DNA from: a virus | Direction: 5' to 3' (one strand) | Length of the DNA stretch: 31,256 nucleotides | IMG/VR virus record: IMGVR_UViG_3300009128_000088 | Location: 1 to 31,256 of that record | Part shown: one piece after another, positions 3,138 through 31,256 of the stretch | Position numbering within the stretch: the stretch's first letter is position 1 | Layout: every line of letters starts with the position of its first letter | Notes under the pieces: generated by a model | What the model was told of the DNA's origin: nothing | Seen by the model: the letters and a program-made list of their open reading frames with translations, nothing else | The model's database searches: none | Translations under genes and position numbers: made by a program

Positions 3138-3708
3138 CACCGCACTCCAGTTCCGCGCCTGGCTCACGTTCCTCAACGGACGGCAACGGCTCCAACACAC
3201 AGAACCGCCGCAGTCCGAACCGCTCAACCCGCGGGTCCTCGCTCGGCACCCTCCGCAGGTCAAGGTCGAAGTGACATTGTATACGGGTCTCCGTATTCGT
3301 GCTGATCCACTGCGCCTGCCGGATGGACAGCGCATGTGCCGGCGGGTACTCCAGCACCGTCCGCTTGGCGCCGCTCACCAGGTCCGCCAGATGCTGCCAC
3401 GCCGGCTCCGTCATCCCCTCCAACGCCAGCCCCATCAGCAGCACCCCGTCCGGCGCCGGATCCAGCCACTCCCTCTCCACGTTCTGGAATGGCACGTCAT
3501 AGCCAGTCTCCACCCCGAATCCAATATCCACGCCAGGCCCCACCAGCGTAATGTCCACGAAGTTCATCGGCCCGCCCTGTGCCGCAATCCCTCGCCCTAC
3601 GGCGCCGATCTCCAGCAACTCCGCGCAGTGGTAAGCCAGCAGGTCGGCCGCGATCGCATACCGCAACCGAAACGGCTCCGAATCCAGATACTCCCAACGC
3701 CCGCTCAC
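3127..3708 (-). CDS. Unknown protein, faint methyltransferase-like pattern
   Basis: This 193-residue protein begins with GTG at 3708, overlapping the stop of the methyltransferase gene (GTGA) and preceded by AGGAGGTG. I do not recognise a family with confidence. Residues about 10-45 read like the start of a class I SAM-binding fold (a helix, then LLEIGAVGRGIA). A later DGVLLMGLALEG strand-like segment could be the next core strand. Glycine spacing in the presumed SAM loop is poor, so it may be a degenerate or inactive relative of its upstream neighbour. It sits between that methyltransferase and the tape measure gene, in the same coupled operon. A tail-assembly role is equally possible. Confidence 0.7.
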   Translation of the reverse strand: MSGRWEYLDSEPFRLRYAIAADLLAYHCAELLEIGAVGRGIAAQGGPMNFVDITLVGPGVDIGFGVETGYDVPFQNVEREWLDPAPDGVLLMGLALEGMTEPAWQHLADLVSGAKRTVLEYPPAHALSIRQAQWISTNTETRIQCHFDLDLRRVPSEDPRVERFGLRRFCVLEPLPSVEEREPGAELECGDGC

Positions 3709-4352
3709 CCCGCCACCTCCTTGATAACCCGAACCACCGCCACCCCGTTCCGGATCGGCCAATCCATCAGCTCGAAATGCCCCGGTAGCTCCCGGATCAG
3801 CCGGACCAGGTAGCGCACGCCAAAGGAGCTGTGCTTGGAATCGTGCAGGGTCACCACTGAGCCCCGATGCAGCCACGGCTGCACCGCCCAGAAGTCGGAG
3901 CTCACATACTCCCACCGGTGGTCCGCATCGATGTGCAGGTAGTCTATCCGCGGGTCATTCTCCCCCCTGGGCAATACCTCAAACAGCGCCTCCCACGTCC
4001 CCTCCACGATCTCAATCTCCGGGAAGTTCCGCCGCAGCGGCCCCGGGTCCCCGTCCTCGCCCGGATCCACAAAGTAGTCCGGCTTGCCCCCGTCCGCCCC
4101 CTCCGTATTCGCATCCACGATAATCGTCCGCCGCGGCAACGCCTCCGCCGCCTGCTGTCCCAGGCTCATCCACTTCGCCACATACCCCGAGCCCGTCCCT
4201 AGGCACACACACACCCGGGCCCGCATCAGATACGGCAACGTGGCATACAGCAACCCCGCCCCCTGATAATCCCCGTCCGCACCATGCCCACGGGCAAACC
4301 GCTCCCCCTCGAGCACTTTCGCCACTGTTCCACTGTTCAGCAGCTCTCGCAT
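3705..4352 (-). CDS. Class I SAM-dependent methyltransferase (Methyltransf_24-like)
   Basis: This 215-residue protein has a glycine-rich SAM loop at about residues 50-57 (CLGTGSGY), an acidic strand end at about 77-80 (IIVDA), the family phrase HIDADH at about 140-145 followed by a helix, and VTLHDS at about 167-172. This pattern is typical of the Methyltransf_24/TylF-like group, which often methylates sugars or small molecules with help from a divalent metal. That suggests O-methylation of a glycan or virion component, but the substrate is unknown. ATG at 4352 lies just after the XRE gene stop (4360); no clear Shine-Dalgarno is present, so it probably depends on coupling. Further upstream starts would overlap the regulator. 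Confidence 0.85.
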   Translation of the reverse strand: MRELLNSGTVAKVLEGERFARGHGADGDYQGAGLLYATLPYLMRARVCVCLGTGSGYVAKWMSLGQQAAEALPRRTIIVDANTEGADGGKPDYFVDPGEDGDPGPLRRNFPEIEIVEGTWEALFEVLPRGENDPRIDYLHIDADHRWEYVSSDFWAVQPWLHRGSVVTLHDSKHSSFGVRYLVRLIRELPGHFELMDWPIRNGVAVVRVIKEVAG

Positions 4353-4359
4353 TTCTGGG

Positions 4360-4581
4360 TCACGCTGCCGCCTCCAACTCCTCCAGCCCCACACGAAGAA
4401 CACCCCGCATGATCTCCTTCGCGCGTTCTGGTTCCACTCGGCGCTCCCCACGTTCAATTTTGCTCAAGTGACTCTTGCTCAGACCCGACGCCTCGGCGAC
4501 TCGTTCACCATCGAGCCGAAGCACTGATCGAACGACCCGAATGTCCGTGGCCCCATAATCCTCGAACGCTTTGGTTGGCAT
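4360..4581 (-). CDS. XRE-family helix-turn-helix regulator
   Basis: This 73-residue protein is little more than a Cro/C1-type HTH. The core lies at about residues 28-50, with GERVAEASGLSKSHLSKIERGERR as the recognisable turn and recognition helix (split here: VAEASGLSKSHL, then SKIERGERR). A strong ribosome site (AGGAGG, 5 nt from ATG) fixes the start at 4581. It heads a small operon (regulator, methyltransferase, unknown protein, tape measure) that follows its own promoter candidate and a leader hairpin. It probably controls this transcript or another phage promoter. A DNA-binding regulator placed between tail genes is unusual. Confidence 0.88.
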   Translation of the reverse strand: MPTKAFEDYGATDIRVVRSVLRLDGERVAEASGLSKSHLSKIERGERRVEPERAKEIMRGVLRVGLEELEAAA

Positions 4582-4613
4582 CGTCTCCTCCTGTCTCCAT
4601 CAGCAGTCAGGCA

Positions 4614-4680
4614 CAAAAAAACGGTTAGCTCGGCACACGCCAATCGCTGTGAAACGATTCGCGCCTGCCGGTCTAACCGT
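4614..4680 (-). terminator. Large leader hairpin with T7 tract upstream of the XRE gene
   Basis: On the minus strand an outer 8-bp stem (ACGGTTAG at 4680-4673 with CTAACCGT at 4628-4621) encloses a CGGCA/TGCCG stem and an inner imperfect stem around AATCG/CGATT. Seven T follow directly (4621-4615). This is a textbook intrinsic terminator in form, but it lies between a promoter candidate and the XRE start at 4581. Read-through would be needed to express the regulator and the tape measure gene, so it may work as an attenuator or as the 3' end of a small RNA. Confidence 0.72.
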
Positions 4681-4763
4681 TGATGGTGTCGCGGACCGAC
4701 TCTTGTTGAGTTGTGGTGGGACATGCGCTCTCGCCTTCGCGAGTTCGCTCCCACACATGTCGT

Positions 4764-4774
4764 ATGATAGCACA
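4764..4774 (-). promoter_or_regulatory. Extended -10 promoter candidate for the XRE/tape measure operon
   Basis: The minus strand reads TGTGCTATCAT, giving TGnTATCAT (extended -10, one mismatch from TATAAT). No good -35 box is seen 16-18 bp upstream. A start about 7 nt downstream would give a leader of roughly 140 nt ending in the T7 hairpin. Confidence 0.45.
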
Positions 4775-4886
4775 GCCTGGGGATTTGGGGTCTGTTCTAT
4801 TGTGCGGATCCGGCCCGATCGGCGCCTCATCACCGCCAATTTCTGCCCCGAAGCGGCAACAATGCGGCAAGTTTGCGCTGAAGAAA

Positions 4887-4939
4887 GCCCCTCCGGAGTT
4901 GGCCGGCGGCGCGGTACCGGCTCAGTACTCCGGAGGGGC
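4887..4939 (-). terminator. Intrinsic terminator after the tail operon
   Basis: A perfect 13-bp inverted repeat (4887-4899 with 4927-4939, arm GCCCCTCCGGAGT) with a 27-nt loop is followed on the minus strand by TTTCTT. It begins 45 nt after the stop of the 108-residue gene at 4984. It ends the transcript that carries the tail tube, Dit, Tal and chaperone genes. Confidence 0.72.
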
Positions 4940-15418: not shown

Positions 15419-15471
15419 GGAAAACAGGCGCAAGCCGGTGCCCTTTACTCCCCGGAACCGGCTTGCGCCTG
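15419..15471. repeat. Dispersed GGAAAACAGGCGCAAGCCGG repeat (family E) within a 15-bp inverted repeat
   Basis: The 27-bp unit at 15419-15445 recurs at 30820-30846 with one mismatch, and at 28691-28717 with one substitution and one deletion. At this site CAGGCGCAAGCCGGT (15425-15439) pairs perfectly with 15457-15471 over a 17-nt loop. The right arm encodes the last residues of the 69-residue protein (QAQAGSG). No T tract follows on the minus strand, so a processing or stability role is more likely than termination. Confidence 0.88.
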
Positions 15472-15654
15472 ACTTCCAAGCTCCCATCGGATGATCTCAA
15501 ACGCCGGATCCTCCAGAATCCGCCGCACCTTCTCCTCCCCCAATGCCTTCGCATCCGCGCGATTGATAACGGTCCACCGCCCCTTATGAAAAGCAACACC
15601 CGAGCGCCGAAACGGGTCGCTCGGGTGCATGGGTTGTACTCTCACGAAAAGCAT
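15445..15654 (-). CDS. Small protein, gp35-like candidate
   Basis: This 69-residue basic protein carries RRSGVAFHKGRWTVINRADA followed by a helix ending ALGEEKVRRILEDPAFEI. That pattern, and the position directly after the capsid gene, resemble the small gp35-like (FluMu) proteins of Mu-like phages; their role is not well defined. AAGG, supplied by the family B tract upstream, lies 7 nt before ATG 15654. Its C-terminus is encoded by one arm of the family E inverted repeat. Confidence 0.7.
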   Translation of the reverse strand: MLFVRVQPMHPSDPFRRSGVAFHKGRWTVINRADAKALGEEKVRRILEDPAFEIIRWELGSQAQAGSGE

Positions 15655-17854: not shown

Positions 17855-18433
17855 GTTGGTACCCTCCTGGCCCGCTCCCTCACGGTCGCGGCTCGGATCT
17901 TCGCCGCGGGGTTCGCGGCAGGTGATAAACAGCCCCTCGCTCGCCTCAACCGGCTGCGGTAGTTCCTCGAGCTCGTCCGTCTTGATGAACGGCCGCGTGG
18001 TGATGCCTGCGCCCAGGAACACGTTCTTGAACCGCTTCCCCTTGTTGTTCCGGTACTTCTCCGCGAACTCCGCCGAGATGTAGCGGAACCGTTTCTTCTC
18101 CAGCAGGTCCGTCCCGCGGTCCGTCCAATCGATCTTGATGTGAAGCCCGTTCGTCTCGAGCTTCATGTCCTCGATCCAGCCGACGGCACCTTCCGGATCC
18201 ATGGAGCGGTGTTCGATGTCCACGGGCAGGGTCTGCCCGACCACGCCCTCCTTGAAGTGCGCCAAGTACCGTTCCGCGTCGCTCTCGTCAACGATGATGT
18301 CCCCATACCACGGGTGCGTCCAATCACCGAGCGGCAGCACATGCACCCAGTTCTGATCCGCCAGAATCTCGGAGAAGGTAACCAGCGCAGCCGTTTCGGA
18401 TTTCGGATTTCGGGTTTCGGATTTGCCCTTCAT
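17366..18433 (-). CDS. Prohead protease with C-terminal scaffold region (Mu gpI-like)
   Basis: This 355-residue protein cleaves scaffold and capsid proteins during head maturation. The protease part (about 15-190) contains VDIEHRSMDPEGAVGWIEDM (the catalytic His is probably in DIEH), a WTDRGTDLLEKKRFRYISAEF block whose SAE serine is the likely nucleophile (shown in parts: WTDRGTDLL, RYISAEF), and the C-terminal half is the coiled-coil scaffold. ATG at 18433 overlaps the gpG-like stop (ATGA). Residues about 3-13 (GKSETRNPKSETA) come from a TTTCGGAT repeat, so the N-terminus is repeat-derived and may not be part of the enzyme. Confidence 0.9.
   Translation of the reverse strand: MKGKSETRNPKSETAALVTFSEILADQNWVHVLPLGDWTHPWYGDIIVDESDAERYLAHFKEGVVGQTLPVDIEHRSMDPEGAVGWIEDMKLETNGLHIKIDWTDRGTDLLEKKRFRYISAEFAEKYRNNKGKRFKNVFLGAGITTRPFIKTDELEELPQPVEASEGLFITCREPRGEDPSRDREGAGQEGTNMADDIQELREEFNRQLAELRETTEAKDAQIAELTEQVTGLTAERDEVAGELGEVQLREQKAAIEAKLSEKPFPEAHRTRFADLLMRVEDAELREELAEAIAQVEIVDTGERGFNEDGSKDRSDLSARDKKVAAQHGVSEEDLAKYGGDEPDYVADGEDDDED
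18393..18426. repeat. CGGATTTCGGATTTCGGG repeat (family C)
   Basis: Four to five imperfect units of TTTCGGA lie at the 5' end of the protease gene and encode the KSETRNPKSET peptide. No other copy of this family is seen in the window. Confidence 0.9.
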
Positions 18434-18918
18434 CCGTGTACCTCCTCTATCAGGTGATCCCCAATCCAGCCCACCCAACGGCTCTTGGTGGAATCCAGCA
18501 TCCCCGGGATGGGATCCCGCGCCGGCATCTTCTCCGTGCCGGAATCGAGCAGTCCCGGGATGTCCCACTCGCCGCGCTGCCAGCTCGCGCCCATGGCCAA
18601 GCGTTGCGGGTCCATCTCCAGAATGGAAGCAGCCCCCGGTCCCGTCAACGCCTCGCGCGTCATTCCCGTCAGGACGCCGATCTGCGCGCCGGGAAAGTGC
18701 CGCTGCTTCCAAGCCGCGTATTGCTCGTCCAGCTCCGGCCACTTCGTCCCGCCATGCGCCGCGCCCTGGGCGGCATAGACCTCCGCCTCTATAAGGTAGA
18801 AGTCCAGCAGGATCCGAGCCCAAACCGGTGTCAGATCCTGCGGCCGATCAATCAGGACGTCCCGGAACGTCTCCTGGATCTGCACCGGCCCTCTCAGATT
18901 GACTGTCATCCCGTACAT
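18430..18918 (-). CDS. Phage virion morphogenesis protein, Mu gpG-like
   Basis: This 162-residue protein matches the phage virion morphogenesis family (tail completion S/gpG). It contains a helix RPQDLTPVWARILLDFYLIE, a KWPELDEQYAAWKQRHFPGA segment, the family hallmark ILTG-type phrase here GVLTGMTREALTG, and ARDPIPGMLDS near the end. The product helps join head and tail. ATG at 18918 (or 18909) has no Shine-Dalgarno; the T run of a terminator-like hairpin lies just before it. It begins the coupled head-maturation set (ATGA overlap with the protease). Confidence 0.88.
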   Translation of the reverse strand: MYGMTVNLRGPVQIQETFRDVLIDRPQDLTPVWARILLDFYLIEAEVYAAQGAAHGGTKWPELDEQYAAWKQRHFPGAQIGVLTGMTREALTGPGAASILEMDPQRLAMGASWQRGEWDIPGLLDSGTEKMPARDPIPGMLDSTKSRWVGWIGDHLIEEVHG

Positions 18919-18924
18919 AATGCG

Positions 18925-18976
18925 AAAAACCGGCAGGTAGCCGAAACACCTTTCGGGTTTCGCCTTCCTACCGGTT
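18925..18976 (-). terminator. Terminator-like hairpin before the gpG-like gene
   Basis: On the minus strand AACCGG (18976-18971) pairs with CCGGTT (18933-18928) around an inner CGAAAC/GTTTCG stem; TTTTT follows (18929-18925). A small ATTGCCC/GGGCAAT hairpin lies 60 nt upstream (19034-19050). It separates two adjacent head genes, so it must be read through or bypassed. Confidence 0.6.
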
Positions 18977-19059
18977 CATCGGGTCGTGGGAGGGCTCTTC
19001 AGTTGTCTCGCAGACGCCCTTACGTATTCACGTATTGCCCTGTGGGCAATCTCACGTAC

Positions 19060-19323
19060 TCACGCCTGCTCTTCAAACGTCTTCTGTTCAGGATTATACC
19101 ACAGAATCTCCAGGGAGAATCCGTCAATCGTCTGCTTCCGTTTGTCCAGGTCGGCCTTCGCCACCGCCTCGAGGATCTCCCGGGCAAGCCCCTCTGACGT
19201 ACCTTCAATGAAGGCCAGTTCCCCTTGCGCCGTCAGCTTCACCTGCTGGCGCACCGGCGGGTCTGTCCGCTCAACGAACAGCACCGCCACCGTGTTCTTC
19301 TCGATTCCCTCTGAGCCAATCAT
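19060..19323 (-). CDS. Small hypothetical protein, 87 residues
   Basis: ATG at 19323 overlaps the MuF-like stop (ATGA). The product has a beta-hairpin-like start (NTVAVLFVERTDPPVRQQVKL), an amphipathic helix TSEGLAREILEAVAKADLD and a last strand DGFSLEILWYN (sequence shortened). No family is recognised. It is translated with the MuF/metallopeptidase gene, so it is a candidate partner or immunity protein, as well as a possible structural accessory. The 3' part of the gene contains a promoter-like sequence. Confidence 0.72.
   Translation of the reverse strand: MIGSEGIEKNTVAVLFVERTDPPVRQQVKLTAQGELAFIEGTSEGLAREILEAVAKADLDKRKQTIDGFSLEILWYNPEQKTFEEQA
19094..19102 (-). promoter_or_regulatory. Extended -10 promoter candidate inside the 87-residue gene
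   Basis: The minus strand reads TGGTATAAT (19102-19094), a perfect extended -10. A TTGACG lies 23 bp upstream, too far for a normal -35. A transcript from here would run about 150 nt to the hairpin with five T at 18925. It is in coding sequence (WYN codons), so chance is possible. Confidence 0.35.
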
Positions 19324-22355: not shown

Positions 22356-23207
22356 TCACATCACTCCCGGATTGTGCCCCGGCATGTAGTGCCGCGGGTT
22401 GTGGCGCCGCATACGATACGCTGCCGCCCCGAGAAGCATCCAGTACCTACGCCGCTCGCGGAACATGGCGAAACTGTCATGGTAGAGCTCGGCGACCTCG
22501 GCAGCGAAGAGGGCGCGGTTGTAGATATACGCGTGATCCATCGCCCCCCACCAAGGGTTGTTCGACTGCCATGTGTCCCGGCCGAGTTCCAGGTTCTCCG
22601 CTGAGTTACCAATCACGGAACCGGCAGCAGAGTTCTCCTCAATTCCGTCGACATAGATTCGGATCGTCGTCCCGTCGTTCGTCGCAACTACGTGATACCA
22701 TCCCGCCGCTGTGTGCACTGCCGAAGTAACCCCCGCATCTACATCACTATCGGCACCATCGCGCAACTGAGCGCCGAACTTGGTTCTGAATGAGGCATTC
22801 GGGTGGCTGGTTGTCCAGTAGTGCAAGTTGTATCCGTTCCACCCCCCTGCATTGTCATGCTTCGTGACCAGTCCCATTGCAATCTGGACGCCGGGGTCGG
22901 GGTCTGCCGAGTCCATTCGTACTCGCGCCACCAATGTCATCCCAAGGGTCAGATCGAGTGCCAGAGCGTCCGCGATTGAGACGTACTGTACAGCCCCATC
23001 CATCTCCATCGCGATGCCCCATGGATTGCCGCCCCATCCACTGGCGTCCGCACCCACCCCGTCGTTACCGTTCCCGCTGGCATCGTAGACCGCCAAGCCT
23101 TCGCCCTCCCAGAAGTTCCAGGCACCGACAAGCCCCTGGGCCAAGGGATGGTCTCGGCGCAGGGTCTCTGGTCCACATACAGGAGGTTTCGGCAGATAGC
23201 CAGGCAT
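22356..23207 (-). CDS. LamG/concanavalin-like jelly-roll protein
   Basis: This 283-residue protein carries a LamG-type lectin-like domain: HPLAQGLVGAWNFWEGEGL near 20-38, YDASGNGNDG, MEMDGAVQYVSI, LTLGMTLVARVRMDS, then GWYHVVATNDGTTIRIYVDG near 168-187 and NPWWGAMDHAYIYNRAL near 217-233. The domain often binds glycans or proteins. The C-terminal 40 residues are basic and His/Arg-rich and may anchor it. ATG at 23207 overlaps the previous stop (TGATG). It is encoded between portal and MuF genes, where a decoration protein with host-surface or mucus binding would be plausible. Confidence 0.88.
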   Translation of the reverse strand: MPGYLPKPPVCGPETLRRDHPLAQGLVGAWNFWEGEGLAVYDASGNGNDGVGADASGWGGNPWGIAMEMDGAVQYVSIADALALDLTLGMTLVARVRMDSADPDPGVQIAMGLVTKHDNAGGWNGYNLHYWTTSHPNASFRTKFGAQLRDGADSDVDAGVTSAVHTAAGWYHVVATNDGTTIRIYVDGIEENSAAGSVIGNSAENLELGRDTWQSNNPWWGAMDHAYIYNRALFAAEVAELYHDSFAMFRERRRYWMLLGAAAYRMRRHNPRHYMPGHNPGVM

Positions 23208-28907: not shown

Positions 28908-29161
28908 TGCGCGTCTCCAATGCCGAGCCCCTTCGCCATGAATCCGACAGCCGTAACGAACGCCGCCACCACCGCCGAGATAAGCCCCGTGATTCGCTTC
29001 GTGCCCGCTTCGGAGCGTTCCAACTGGGTCACCCGCTCCTCGTGATCGCTGAGCTCGCCGTCCACGTGCTTGCACCGCTCCTCATACTGCCCCACCAGCT
29101 TCTGCACATCCCCATGAATCGCCGTCAGCTTCTCGTGGATCGCCGTCAGCTCACTGCTCAT
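28904..29161 (-). CDS. Small coiled-coil membrane protein (XhlA/holin-like)
   Basis: This 85-residue protein has an N-terminal coiled coil (about 1-52: LTAIHEKLTAIHGDVQKLVG and QYEERCKHVDGELSDHEERV) followed by one membrane segment (about 58-78: TGLISAVVAAFVTAVGFMAK). That layout is the same as XhlA-type hemolysin/holin-associated proteins and other small phage membrane proteins. It starts 11 nt before the end of the upstream membrane gene. The pair may form a lysis unit, but no endolysin is in the window to confirm it. Confidence 0.75.
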   Translation of the reverse strand: MSSELTAIHEKLTAIHGDVQKLVGQYEERCKHVDGELSDHEERVTQLERSEAGTKRITGLISAVVAAFVTAVGFMAKGLGIGDAQ

Positions 29162-29357
29162 GTCCCTTCCCGTTCCCTCTCCGCGTCACATACTCCCCGA
29201 TCTGCGCCCCAAAGATCGTCAGCATCCACTCCGGCGGCTCGATCTGGAGAAACACCGACGCGCAAAGCGTCACCGCCATCAACAGCAGCGCAATCGCCCG
29301 CACCGACCCGGGCGGCAGTCCCAACGGCGGAGGAGTAGGTTCCATCGTTGCTTCCAT
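29151..29357 (-). CDS. Small membrane protein, holin candidate
   Basis: This 68-residue protein has a Pro-rich N-terminus, the phrase GSVRAIALLLMAVTLCASVF (one membrane segment, about 18-37), then PPEWMLTIFGAQIGEYVTRR, possibly a second amphipathic segment, and a charged tail (RGNGKGHEQ). Similar GSVRA-type proteins are common in tailed phage lysis or head regions. ATG at 29357 follows AGGAG by 6 nt. It is the first gene after the early/late border, so its transcript comes from read-through of the terminator at 29414 or from an unseen promoter. Confidence 0.72.
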   Translation of the reverse strand: MEATMEPTPPPLGLPPGSVRAIALLLMAVTLCASVFLQIEPPEWMLTIFGAQIGEYVTRRGNGKGHEQ

Positions 29358-29368
29358 CACGAGCTCCT

Positions 29369-29405
29369 GGAATCCGCAGGATTCCCAAGGAACGCGAAGC
29401 GTTCC
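29369..29405. repeat. Two adjacent 17-bp palindromes
   Basis: GGAATCCGCAGGATTCC (29369-29385) and GGAACGCGAAGCGTTCC (29389-29405) are separated by 3 bp. The second type resembles GGAACCGC-CT-GCGGTTCC at 4950-4967, and the first resembles 17189-17205. They lie between the terminator and the first late gene. Confidence 0.8.
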
Positions 29406-29413
29406 AACAGAAA

Positions 29414-29460
29414 ACGCCCAGGGGAAGGCATCTCCTGTGAGAAGCCTTCCACCTGGGCGT
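29414..29460 (-). terminator. Strong intrinsic terminator between early and late modules
   Basis: On the minus strand ACGCCCAGG (29460-29452) pairs with CCTGGGCGT (29422-29414) and GAAGGC/GCCTTC extend the stem, giving about 15-16 bp with a 14-nt loop. TTTTCTGTT follows. It ends transcripts from the ASCH gene (stop at 29508) and also lies directly downstream of the promoter candidate at 29487. Confidence 0.85.
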
Positions 29461-29486
29461 CAATGCCGTCGCGGGTGTCGCCTCTC

Positions 29487-29495
29487 ATTATACCA
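29487..29495 (-). promoter_or_regulatory. Extended -10 promoter candidate (TGGTATAAT) after the ASCH gene
   Basis: The minus strand reads TGGTATAAT (29495-29487), a perfect consensus -10 with TGn extension. The -35 region is weak (GTTCTG at 16 bp). A start near 29480 gives a transcript of about 70 nt that ends at the hairpin 29460-29414. It could be a small RNA or a controllable leader for the late operon. Confidence 0.6.
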
Positions 29496-30075: not shown

Positions 30076-30789
30076 TCAAGCCGCCTCAGCAGCCACCGCC
30101 TCCTCCCCCGCCTCTTCAGCGACAGAATGGAGCTCCGCCCGTTCGACTTCAAAGAACGGCCCGTCTTCCTGGACCACGCGGAGGCCGTTCTTCGCCAGGC
30201 GCCGCTGTATCGTGTCATGGCTGGGTGCCGGAACGACGTTCCCGCCATCGTCCTTCTCTTCCTTGCCAGCCCAGTGATCGAGCACCGCTTGCTTGTTGAT
30301 CTGCGCCAGTGGCTGTCGCACATAGCCGAGCTTGCGAAGGTTCTTCATCCACTCGTCGTTCTCTTTGACGGCTTTCTCCGTCATGCCCGGCTTCGGCTTC
30401 ACGGCGGGGTTGCCCAGGCGGTACCCGATCAGGCCGTTCGGCAGCTCCCGGGTGCGGTTGCCTGCCTCCCCGGAGAACGCCTGCTCCTGCTCCTCCACGA
30501 ACGCCAACACGTCCGCCGACAGCGCCTCATGCCGGACGTCGAAGTGCTCGTTCTCCACACCCTCCGGCATCGTCTCGAGCACCTCCTGCAGCGTCGCCGG
30601 GATGTCCACGTTCATGTCCACCCCACGCATCAGCCGCGCCTGGATCTGCGCCACCGCCTCCTCGATCTGGTTCCGCCAGTTCTCCACCGCCTGCCGCTTC
30701 GTCTCCAGCTCCCGAAGCTCGGCAAGCCGCTCGTCACAAGCCTCCATCGTCGGAATCGTAGTCTCAACCTTCTTCTTCCGTGCTGCCAT
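30076..30789 (-). CDS. gam: Host-nuclease inhibitor, Gam-like
   Basis: This 237-residue protein resembles Mu Gam, which binds DNA ends and protects linear DNA from exonucleases during phage DNA entry or transposition. A long coiled coil (about 13-45) includes MEACDERLAELRELETKRQA. The Gam core contains ELPNGLIGYRLGNPAVKPKP near 115-134 and LRKLGYVRQPLAQINKQAVL near 149-168, both typical. A Gly/Asp-rich loop and a C-terminal region ending in EEAGEEAVAAEAA follow. ATG at 30789 is chosen (GAGAGG 9 nt upstream); the longer frame to 30873 is translated from a family E repeat. Some are longer than Mu Gam (174) as here. Confidence 0.88.
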   Translation of the reverse strand: MAARKKKVETTIPTMEACDERLAELRELETKRQAVENWRNQIEEAVAQIQARLMRGVDMNVDIPATLQEVLETMPEGVENEHFDVRHEALSADVLAFVEEQEQAFSGEAGNRTRELPNGLIGYRLGNPAVKPKPGMTEKAVKENDEWMKNLRKLGYVRQPLAQINKQAVLDHWAGKEEKDDGGNVVPAPSHDTIQRRLAKNGLRVVQEDGPFFEVERAELHSVAEEAGEEAVAAEAA

Positions 30790-30819
30790 TTCTCGCATCC
30801 TCTCTTCTACCAGTTGCGT

Positions 30820-30846
30820 GGAAAACAGGCGCCAGCCGGTGCCCTT
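30820..30846. repeat. Family E repeat copy upstream of gam
   Basis: The sequence GGAAAACAGGCGCCAGCCGG plus TGCCCTT matches 15419-15445 at 26 of 27 positions. It lies in the 88-bp gap between the coiled-coil gene and gam. Confidence 0.88.
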
Positions 30847-30877
30847 CACGTTGACGGGCCGACCGACACCCACCCTC

Positions 30878-31048
30878 TCACCGAATCATCTCGCCCTCTG
30901 CGGCCCGCACCTCATCCAAGATCATGCAAGCCCGCGCATACTCCATCTCCAACCTCTGCACCTCCTCGCTCAACCGCTGGTTCTCCTGGATCAACTCCGC
31001 AACTTCAACGGCACACTCTGGACAAAGCCCCTCCGTCTGCTCGCTCAT
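30878..31048 (-). CDS. Small coiled-coil protein, 56 residues
   Basis: ATG at 31048 overlaps the previous stop (ATGA) and follows GGAGGTG by 5 nt, so I reject the longer start at 31099. The product has a CPEC pair near 10-13 and then a continuous heptad-rich helix (AVEVAELIQENQRLSEEVQR and onward). It probably forms a coiled-coil dimer or trimer. The CPEC motif could bind zinc with another subunit. No family is recognised. It is part of the early module. Confidence 0.72.
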   Translation of the reverse strand: MSEQTEGLCPECAVEVAELIQENQRLSEEVQRLEMEYARACMILDEVRAAEGEMIR

Positions 31049-31230
31049 CCGAGCACCTCCCCCCCCGCAAACAGTCTCAACGCCCGCCCCCAGAAACACC
31101 GCCGCCGCCCCTTGTATCTTTGCTTCCCCCGCAGCTCCAACAGCCCCAGATCAACCAGCTCCCCTCTGCGCGGCGTAACCCGATTGATCGCCCACCCCAA
31201 CCGCGCCGCAACCTCCAGATCGCACAACAT
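31045..31230 (-). CDS. Winged-helix-like small protein
   Basis: This 61-residue protein has CDLEVAARLGWAINRVTPRR followed by GELVDLGLLELRGKQRYKGR. Helix, turn, recognition helix with RVTPRRGELV, then a beta wing, matches small winged-helix proteins seen in the early regions of transposable and other phages. ATG at 31230 follows GGGAGG closely; GTG at 31248 is possible. The window ends 26 bp upstream, so its promoter is not visible. Confidence 0.72.
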   Translation of the reverse strand: MLCDLEVAARLGWAINRVTPRRGELVDLGLLELRGKQRYKGRRRCFWGRALRLFAGGEVLG

Positions 31231-31256
31231 GGCCCCCTCCCGGAACACCCCCCAAA

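Follow-up and report, generated by a model that had tools for sequence, protein, structure and literature searches.

A 31,256-base IMG/VR virus record from an uncultured phage with Mu-like head genes carries, on its late-gene strand, three modules (E1, E2 and E3) in which an extended -10 motif is followed by a conserved leader and an intrinsic-type terminator, and in which the leader hairpin and the base of the terminator share nucleotides. With moderate confidence, we read these modules as three promoter-proximal attenuators, at which a trans-acting factor would stabilise the leader hairpin and let RNA polymerase pass. Coordinates refer to this whole stretch of 31,256 bases, called the window below.

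Gene layout and the relative G001

The minus strand of the window encodes a Mu-like Gam protein (30076-30873) and an ASCH-domain protein (29508 to about 30000), as well as a Mu gp27-like small terminase, TerL, a Mu portal, and head protease, capsid and tape-measure proteins. The closest comparison is offered by the relative G001 (IMGVR 3300013120_000374; 33,550 bases), whose TerL is 84% identical and which is accompanied by near-identical contigs. Two further genes, for a winged-helix protein (31045-31254; a match to the uncharacterised family phrog_1123) and a coiled-coil protein (30878-31099), are conserved between the two phages at 76% and 49% identity, respectively. None of the contigs has a complete early region.

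Several other features of the window deserve mention. A gene with a laminin-G/concanavalin-like lectin domain lies among the head genes (22356-23207) and one with a methyltransferase domain among the tail genes (3705-4457). Two strong hairpins with T-rich tails are located behind the capsid gene (15597-15627 and 15425-15471), and the relative has a conserved counterpart of the first (CACCCGAG...CTCGGGTG). About 320 nt of the ASCH-domain gene, intact in the window, are gone from the relative (L003 4156-4345), where the promoter-terminator module behind the gene is still intact.

Three modules on the late strand

E1 is located at an operon border, ahead of the lysis, terminase and portal genes. 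Its extended -10 (29487..29495, minus strand) matches TGGTATAAT exactly and is kept in G001 at 4302; no -35 with at least four of six matches was found upstream of it at spacers of 15-19. Transcription would be expected to start at about 29480, only about 5 nt before the conserved leader (CCCGCGAC-GGC-AUUGAC-GCC; 29456..29475, minus strand), a distance also predicted for the G001 copy. The GGC and GCC of this leader can pair to give a mini-hairpin with a hexaloop. The leader runs into a predicted intrinsic terminator (29411..29460, minus strand) with a 16-bp stem of 9+7 bp and one mismatch (29460-29414), directly followed by TTTTCTGTT (UUUU in the RNA), whose pairing is kept in G001. The 80-nt fold has a minimum free energy of -47.4 kcal/mol, compared with -25.8 for shuffled sequences (z = -7.25), and the predicted transcript would be about 72 nt long. 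A preliminary description of this DNA had noted a perfect extended -10 aimed straight into a terminator, and the exact motif, the fold and the conservation in G001 bear this out. The standard promoter and terminator scan missed E1 because it requires a -35 and tolerates loops no longer than 8 nt.

The first gene behind E1 encodes a small predicted membrane protein of 69 aa (29151..29360, minus strand) and is followed by 85-aa and 64-aa genes and those for the Mu gp27-like small terminase, TerL and the portal. The stretch separating the E1 terminator from this gene contains a pair of small, perfect hairpins (GGAACGC/GCGTTCC and GGAATCC/GGATTCC; 29357-29405); the corresponding spot of the relative (L003 4395-4470) holds an unrelated TTGCCAATTG-type repeat.

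The same description took the E1 motif for the only clear promoter before the late operon, which proved wrong, as sister modules are present on the late strand at 19101 and 4772. The extended -10 of E2, again TGGTATAAT (19093..19101, minus strand), lies within the 3' end of a 119-aa gene, where it spells W-Y-N codons; both phages retain TAT and AAT here, although these are in the minority for their amino acids (36% and 19%). Its leader (CCCACGAC-CCG-AUGAAC-CGG; 18971..18990, minus strand) leads into a terminator hairpin with UUUUU (18925..18976, minus strand), immediately ahead of a 162-aa gene (18430-18918) and then the head protease and capsid genes. E3 consists of an extended -10 with one mismatch (TGCTATCAT; 4764..4772, minus strand), the leader UCCGCGAC-ACC-AUCAAC-GGU (4676..4695, minus strand) and a terminator hairpin with U7 (4615..4681, minus strand). 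Behind it lies a 73-aa gene of the HTH_3 (Xre) type (4360..4581, minus strand). E3 and this gene form a cassette situated in a stretch that is missing from G001. The HTH_3 gene with its own putative promoter and attenuator (4360-4870) follows directly on a hairpin (4887-4939) that is present in both phages and 89% identical.

By itself, the extended -10 is within chance expectation: with up to one mismatch, TGNTATAAT occurs three times in the window, all on the minus strand, against 2.8 expected. The combination with a leader and terminator exceeds chance. All three sites lie 20-111 nt upstream of the only three leader-terminator copies in the window, and random placement would yield this with a probability of about 1.5e-7, an order of magnitude only, since motif and distance were picked after looking. 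The leader motif CCRCGAC-N3-AT-N2-AC is found three times, against 0.054 expected from 1000 dinucleotide shuffles.

Leader and terminator pair in mutually exclusive ways

E1 and E2 are both kept in G001: its late strand has perfect extended -10 sites at two positions, 4302 and 15066, and an element follows each of them. An alignment of the five copies (E1, E2 and E3 of the window, E1 and E2 of G001) shows that all share the leader CCRCGAC-NNN-AUNRAC-N'N'N'-YAG, with NNN complementary to N'N'N' in every case (GGC/GCC in three copies, CCG/CGG and ACC/GGU in one each). Every base pair of the leader hairpin is formed in all copies, double changes occur in all three pairs, and the covariation score is 1.13, reached in 0 of 500 shuffles, compared with 0.28 for shuffled alignments. 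With two distinct phages and three states of NNN, the number of compensated changes behind the covariation is two, in a small comparison of five copies. E3 was detected with NNN unconstrained, and its pairing still holds at three of three positions. At the base of the terminator, AC-N'N'N'-YAG pairs with CUR-NNN-GU; here, 97.8% of cells are paired, four pairs show double changes and covariation is 0.53, compared with 0.21 after shuffling.

N'N'N' is therefore part of both the leader hairpin and the base of the 5' terminator arm. Since it is unable to pair with both partners at once, an RNA can form either the mini-hairpin or the complete terminator, but not both. With 3 bp and the hexaloop AUNRAC, the mini-hairpin is weak when taken alone (-1.4 to -3.1 kcal/mol), so that a bound factor or another strong stabiliser would be expected to hold it.

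Other readings of the repeated leader were considered and rejected. It is not a coding sequence: the frame that reads R/H-D-G-I-N/D-A-Q in E1 gives different residues and stops in E2 and E3. Nor is it a mobile, REP-like repeat, as the stem sequences differ while the pairing is kept. In E1 folds, the leader additionally pairs downstream of the U-tract, a contact that the copies as a whole do not consistently show.

In E1 of G001, conservation extends over the promoter, the leader (24 nt) and the base of the stem; the apical stem is wholly different and still paired. This pattern bears on whether the products of the three promoters are small RNAs in their own right, about 70-165 nt long and ending at the terminators, that work in trans or serve as decoys. 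Such RNAs are what a promoter plus a terminator alone would predict. However, conservation is lacking in the apical stems and loops, the likely target-binding parts of such RNAs, and is instead seen where the RNA overlaps the base of the terminator, and each copy lies directly upstream of a group of genes on the same strand; we consider this explanation improbable. The preliminary description had left the choice between a short RNA and antitermination. Of these, we favour attenuation, under which a short RNA is also expected; a short RNA alone leaves the covariation and the repetition of the leader unexplained.

A hairpin that protects the 5' ends of the late mRNAs or blocks read-through from upstream, with no regulated antitermination, would fit the proximity of the E1 hairpin to the 5' end of its RNA, the position of E1 at an operon border and the E2 hairpin abutting a start codon. 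A GC-rich stem followed by U4-U7 would nevertheless be poorly suited to stabilisation alone, and the conserved leader and its pairing with the terminator arm would find no explanation; to this possibility, too, we assign little probability. Both the stand-alone RNAs and the 5' stabiliser are thus less likely than an attenuator regulon. In E2 of G001, the U-tract comprises only UUU, and this terminator may be poor at stopping polymerase.

Spacing of promoter and leader

The distance from the start of the -10 to the leader is 20, 64, 77 or 111 nt across the copies, and this variability argues for an RNA element that acts on its own terminator rather than one that acts while bound at the promoter. 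The point weighs against processive antitermination of the Q type, in which a protein similar to Q, AlpA or GafZ would bind promoter DNA and load onto polymerase, which would then ignore terminators, the leader belonging to a loading or pause site. The modules do have a terminator downstream of a putative late promoter, as in the published layout of promoter, terminator and late or lysis genes for lambdoid Q and AlpA, and GafZ carries polymerase past a terminator located after the first gene (PMC6606751, PMC7969949, PMC11150451). However, the elements of Q, AlpA and GafZ are fixed relative to the promoter, whereas the promoter-leader distance here differs by about 90 nt; inspection of the 45 nt preceding each of the five promoters revealed no common motif between -35 and -10; and every terminator has its own leader copy, which covaries with the terminator arm. 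We regard a Q-type mechanism as rather unlikely. The variable distance, together with a leader copy at every terminator, favours local control by RNA over processive antitermination loaded at the promoter.

Occurrence outside the two phages

Scans of viral and genome collections with the leader patterns returned chance matches only, without a terminator, and a search of bacterial genomes with TerL gave no match and hence no pointer to a host. Among relatives of TerL, MCP and the 162-aa protein, the element was present only in the same virus and its near-identical contigs. Across the whole window, no Rfam family matched at its gathering score; at E1 and E3, only sub-threshold matches occurred, mostly of the microRNA type. 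We attribute these to chance and rejected membership in an Rfam family.

A similar arrangement, in which GTGGTATAAT is followed by a strong terminator within about 50 nt and then a ribosome-binding site, is found in three apparently unrelated viral contigs (G006, L068 5534-5640; G007, L069 4665-4810; G004, L071 6442-6550). In G006 and G007, it lies just upstream of scaffold/capsid-like genes. The leader of E1-E3 is absent from all three. As they were retrieved with a pattern that selects for the layout, these contigs suggest, without measuring, how common it is.

A possible mechanism

In the attenuation mechanism that we propose, each module would comprise, in order, the extended -10, a 5' UTR of variable length, the leader CCRCGAC-NNN-AUNRAC and a terminator whose 5' arm starts with AC-N'N'N'. 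From these features we infer promoter activity, termination, the timing of release and a factor acting on the leader. Host RNA polymerase would initiate unaided at the three promoters and halt at the terminators, so that late genes stay off. An early phage protein encoded outside the present contigs would probably be the trans-acting factor that then binds the leader and stabilises the NNN/N'N'N' mini-hairpin. This would tie up the lowest five bases of the 5' arm and leave a shortened stem detached from the U-tract. Read-through would release the lysis, packaging and portal genes at E1, the head genes at E2, and at E3 the HTH gene together with the tail region that follows it. The late genes are thus probably released together by a factor holding the leader open; within the contigs, the winged-helix and coiled-coil proteins, which the preliminary description had put forward, are candidates for this role.

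Comparison with known systems

In phage Mu, the late genes are arranged in several units, and the late promoters Plys and PI are activated by C. E1 and E2 lie roughly where Plys and PI are located in Mu. In contrast to these activator-dependent promoters, the present phage has putative attenuators behind extended -10 promoters, and no C/Mor gene was seen among the genes scanned.

The modules resemble the targets of the ANTAR proteins EutV, NasR and AmiR in several respects. A hexaloop mini-hairpin overlaps the 5' arm of the terminator in all five copies, all of which have AUNRAC with A at loop position 1; several leaders would belong to one regulon, as with EutV, which governs four (PMC3369936, PMC3369931); and read-through is proposed to occur via a shortened terminator stem. 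In both ANTAR P2 and the LicT RAT, the terminator stem is shortened and parted from the U-tract (PMC3369936). Unlike in ANTAR targets, however, loop position 4 is G only in E1 of the window and A in the other four copies, and no second, upstream hexaloop hairpin (P1, with A1/G4) is present in either E1 copy or in E2 of G001; in E1, the roughly 5 nt between expected start and leader leave no room for it. The elements here also differ in sitting at phage late promoters. The features that define an ANTAR-target RNA, G4 and the second hairpin, are thus lacking. A search of the window and the relative for the ANTAR domain (PF03861) gave no match, in contigs that lack the early region and with control genomes also silent.

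As in the RATs of the BglG/LicT/SacY family, where an RNA-binding protein holds the RAT, a leader RNA element overlaps the 5' arm of the terminator; here it is a 3-bp stem with a hexaloop rather than an extended antiterminator stem, and there is no sugar operon. With lambda Q, 21Q, AlpA and GafZ, the modules share terminators, close to the promoter or in the early operon, beyond which polymerase has to read to express late, lysis or particle genes; the DNA element of Q, AlpA and GafZ lies between -35 and -10, whereas the conserved element here is downstream, in the transcript, at a variable distance. put RNA of HK022 is comparable in that a phage RNA element located close to a promoter would keep polymerase from terminating. 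put, which needs no protein, has two stem-loops in about 70 nt and targets distant terminators, whereas the leader here has about 20 nt and one mini-hairpin and is repeated ahead of each terminator. Tentatively, and at somewhat less than even confidence, we suggest a new class of RNA antiterminator that would govern a late-gene regulon in place of Mu C: a single 3-bp hexaloop hairpin, repeated after each late promoter and recognised by a phage RNA-binding protein.

In the known phage antitermination switch of Q, polymerase is modified at one promoter; here, several late promoters apparently share a leader-controlled attenuator. Cellular regulons such as eut are known to be built in this way. 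If our reading is true, phages would have a second means of co-ordinating their late genes, and the attenuators would offer a handle on the missing RNA-binding protein.
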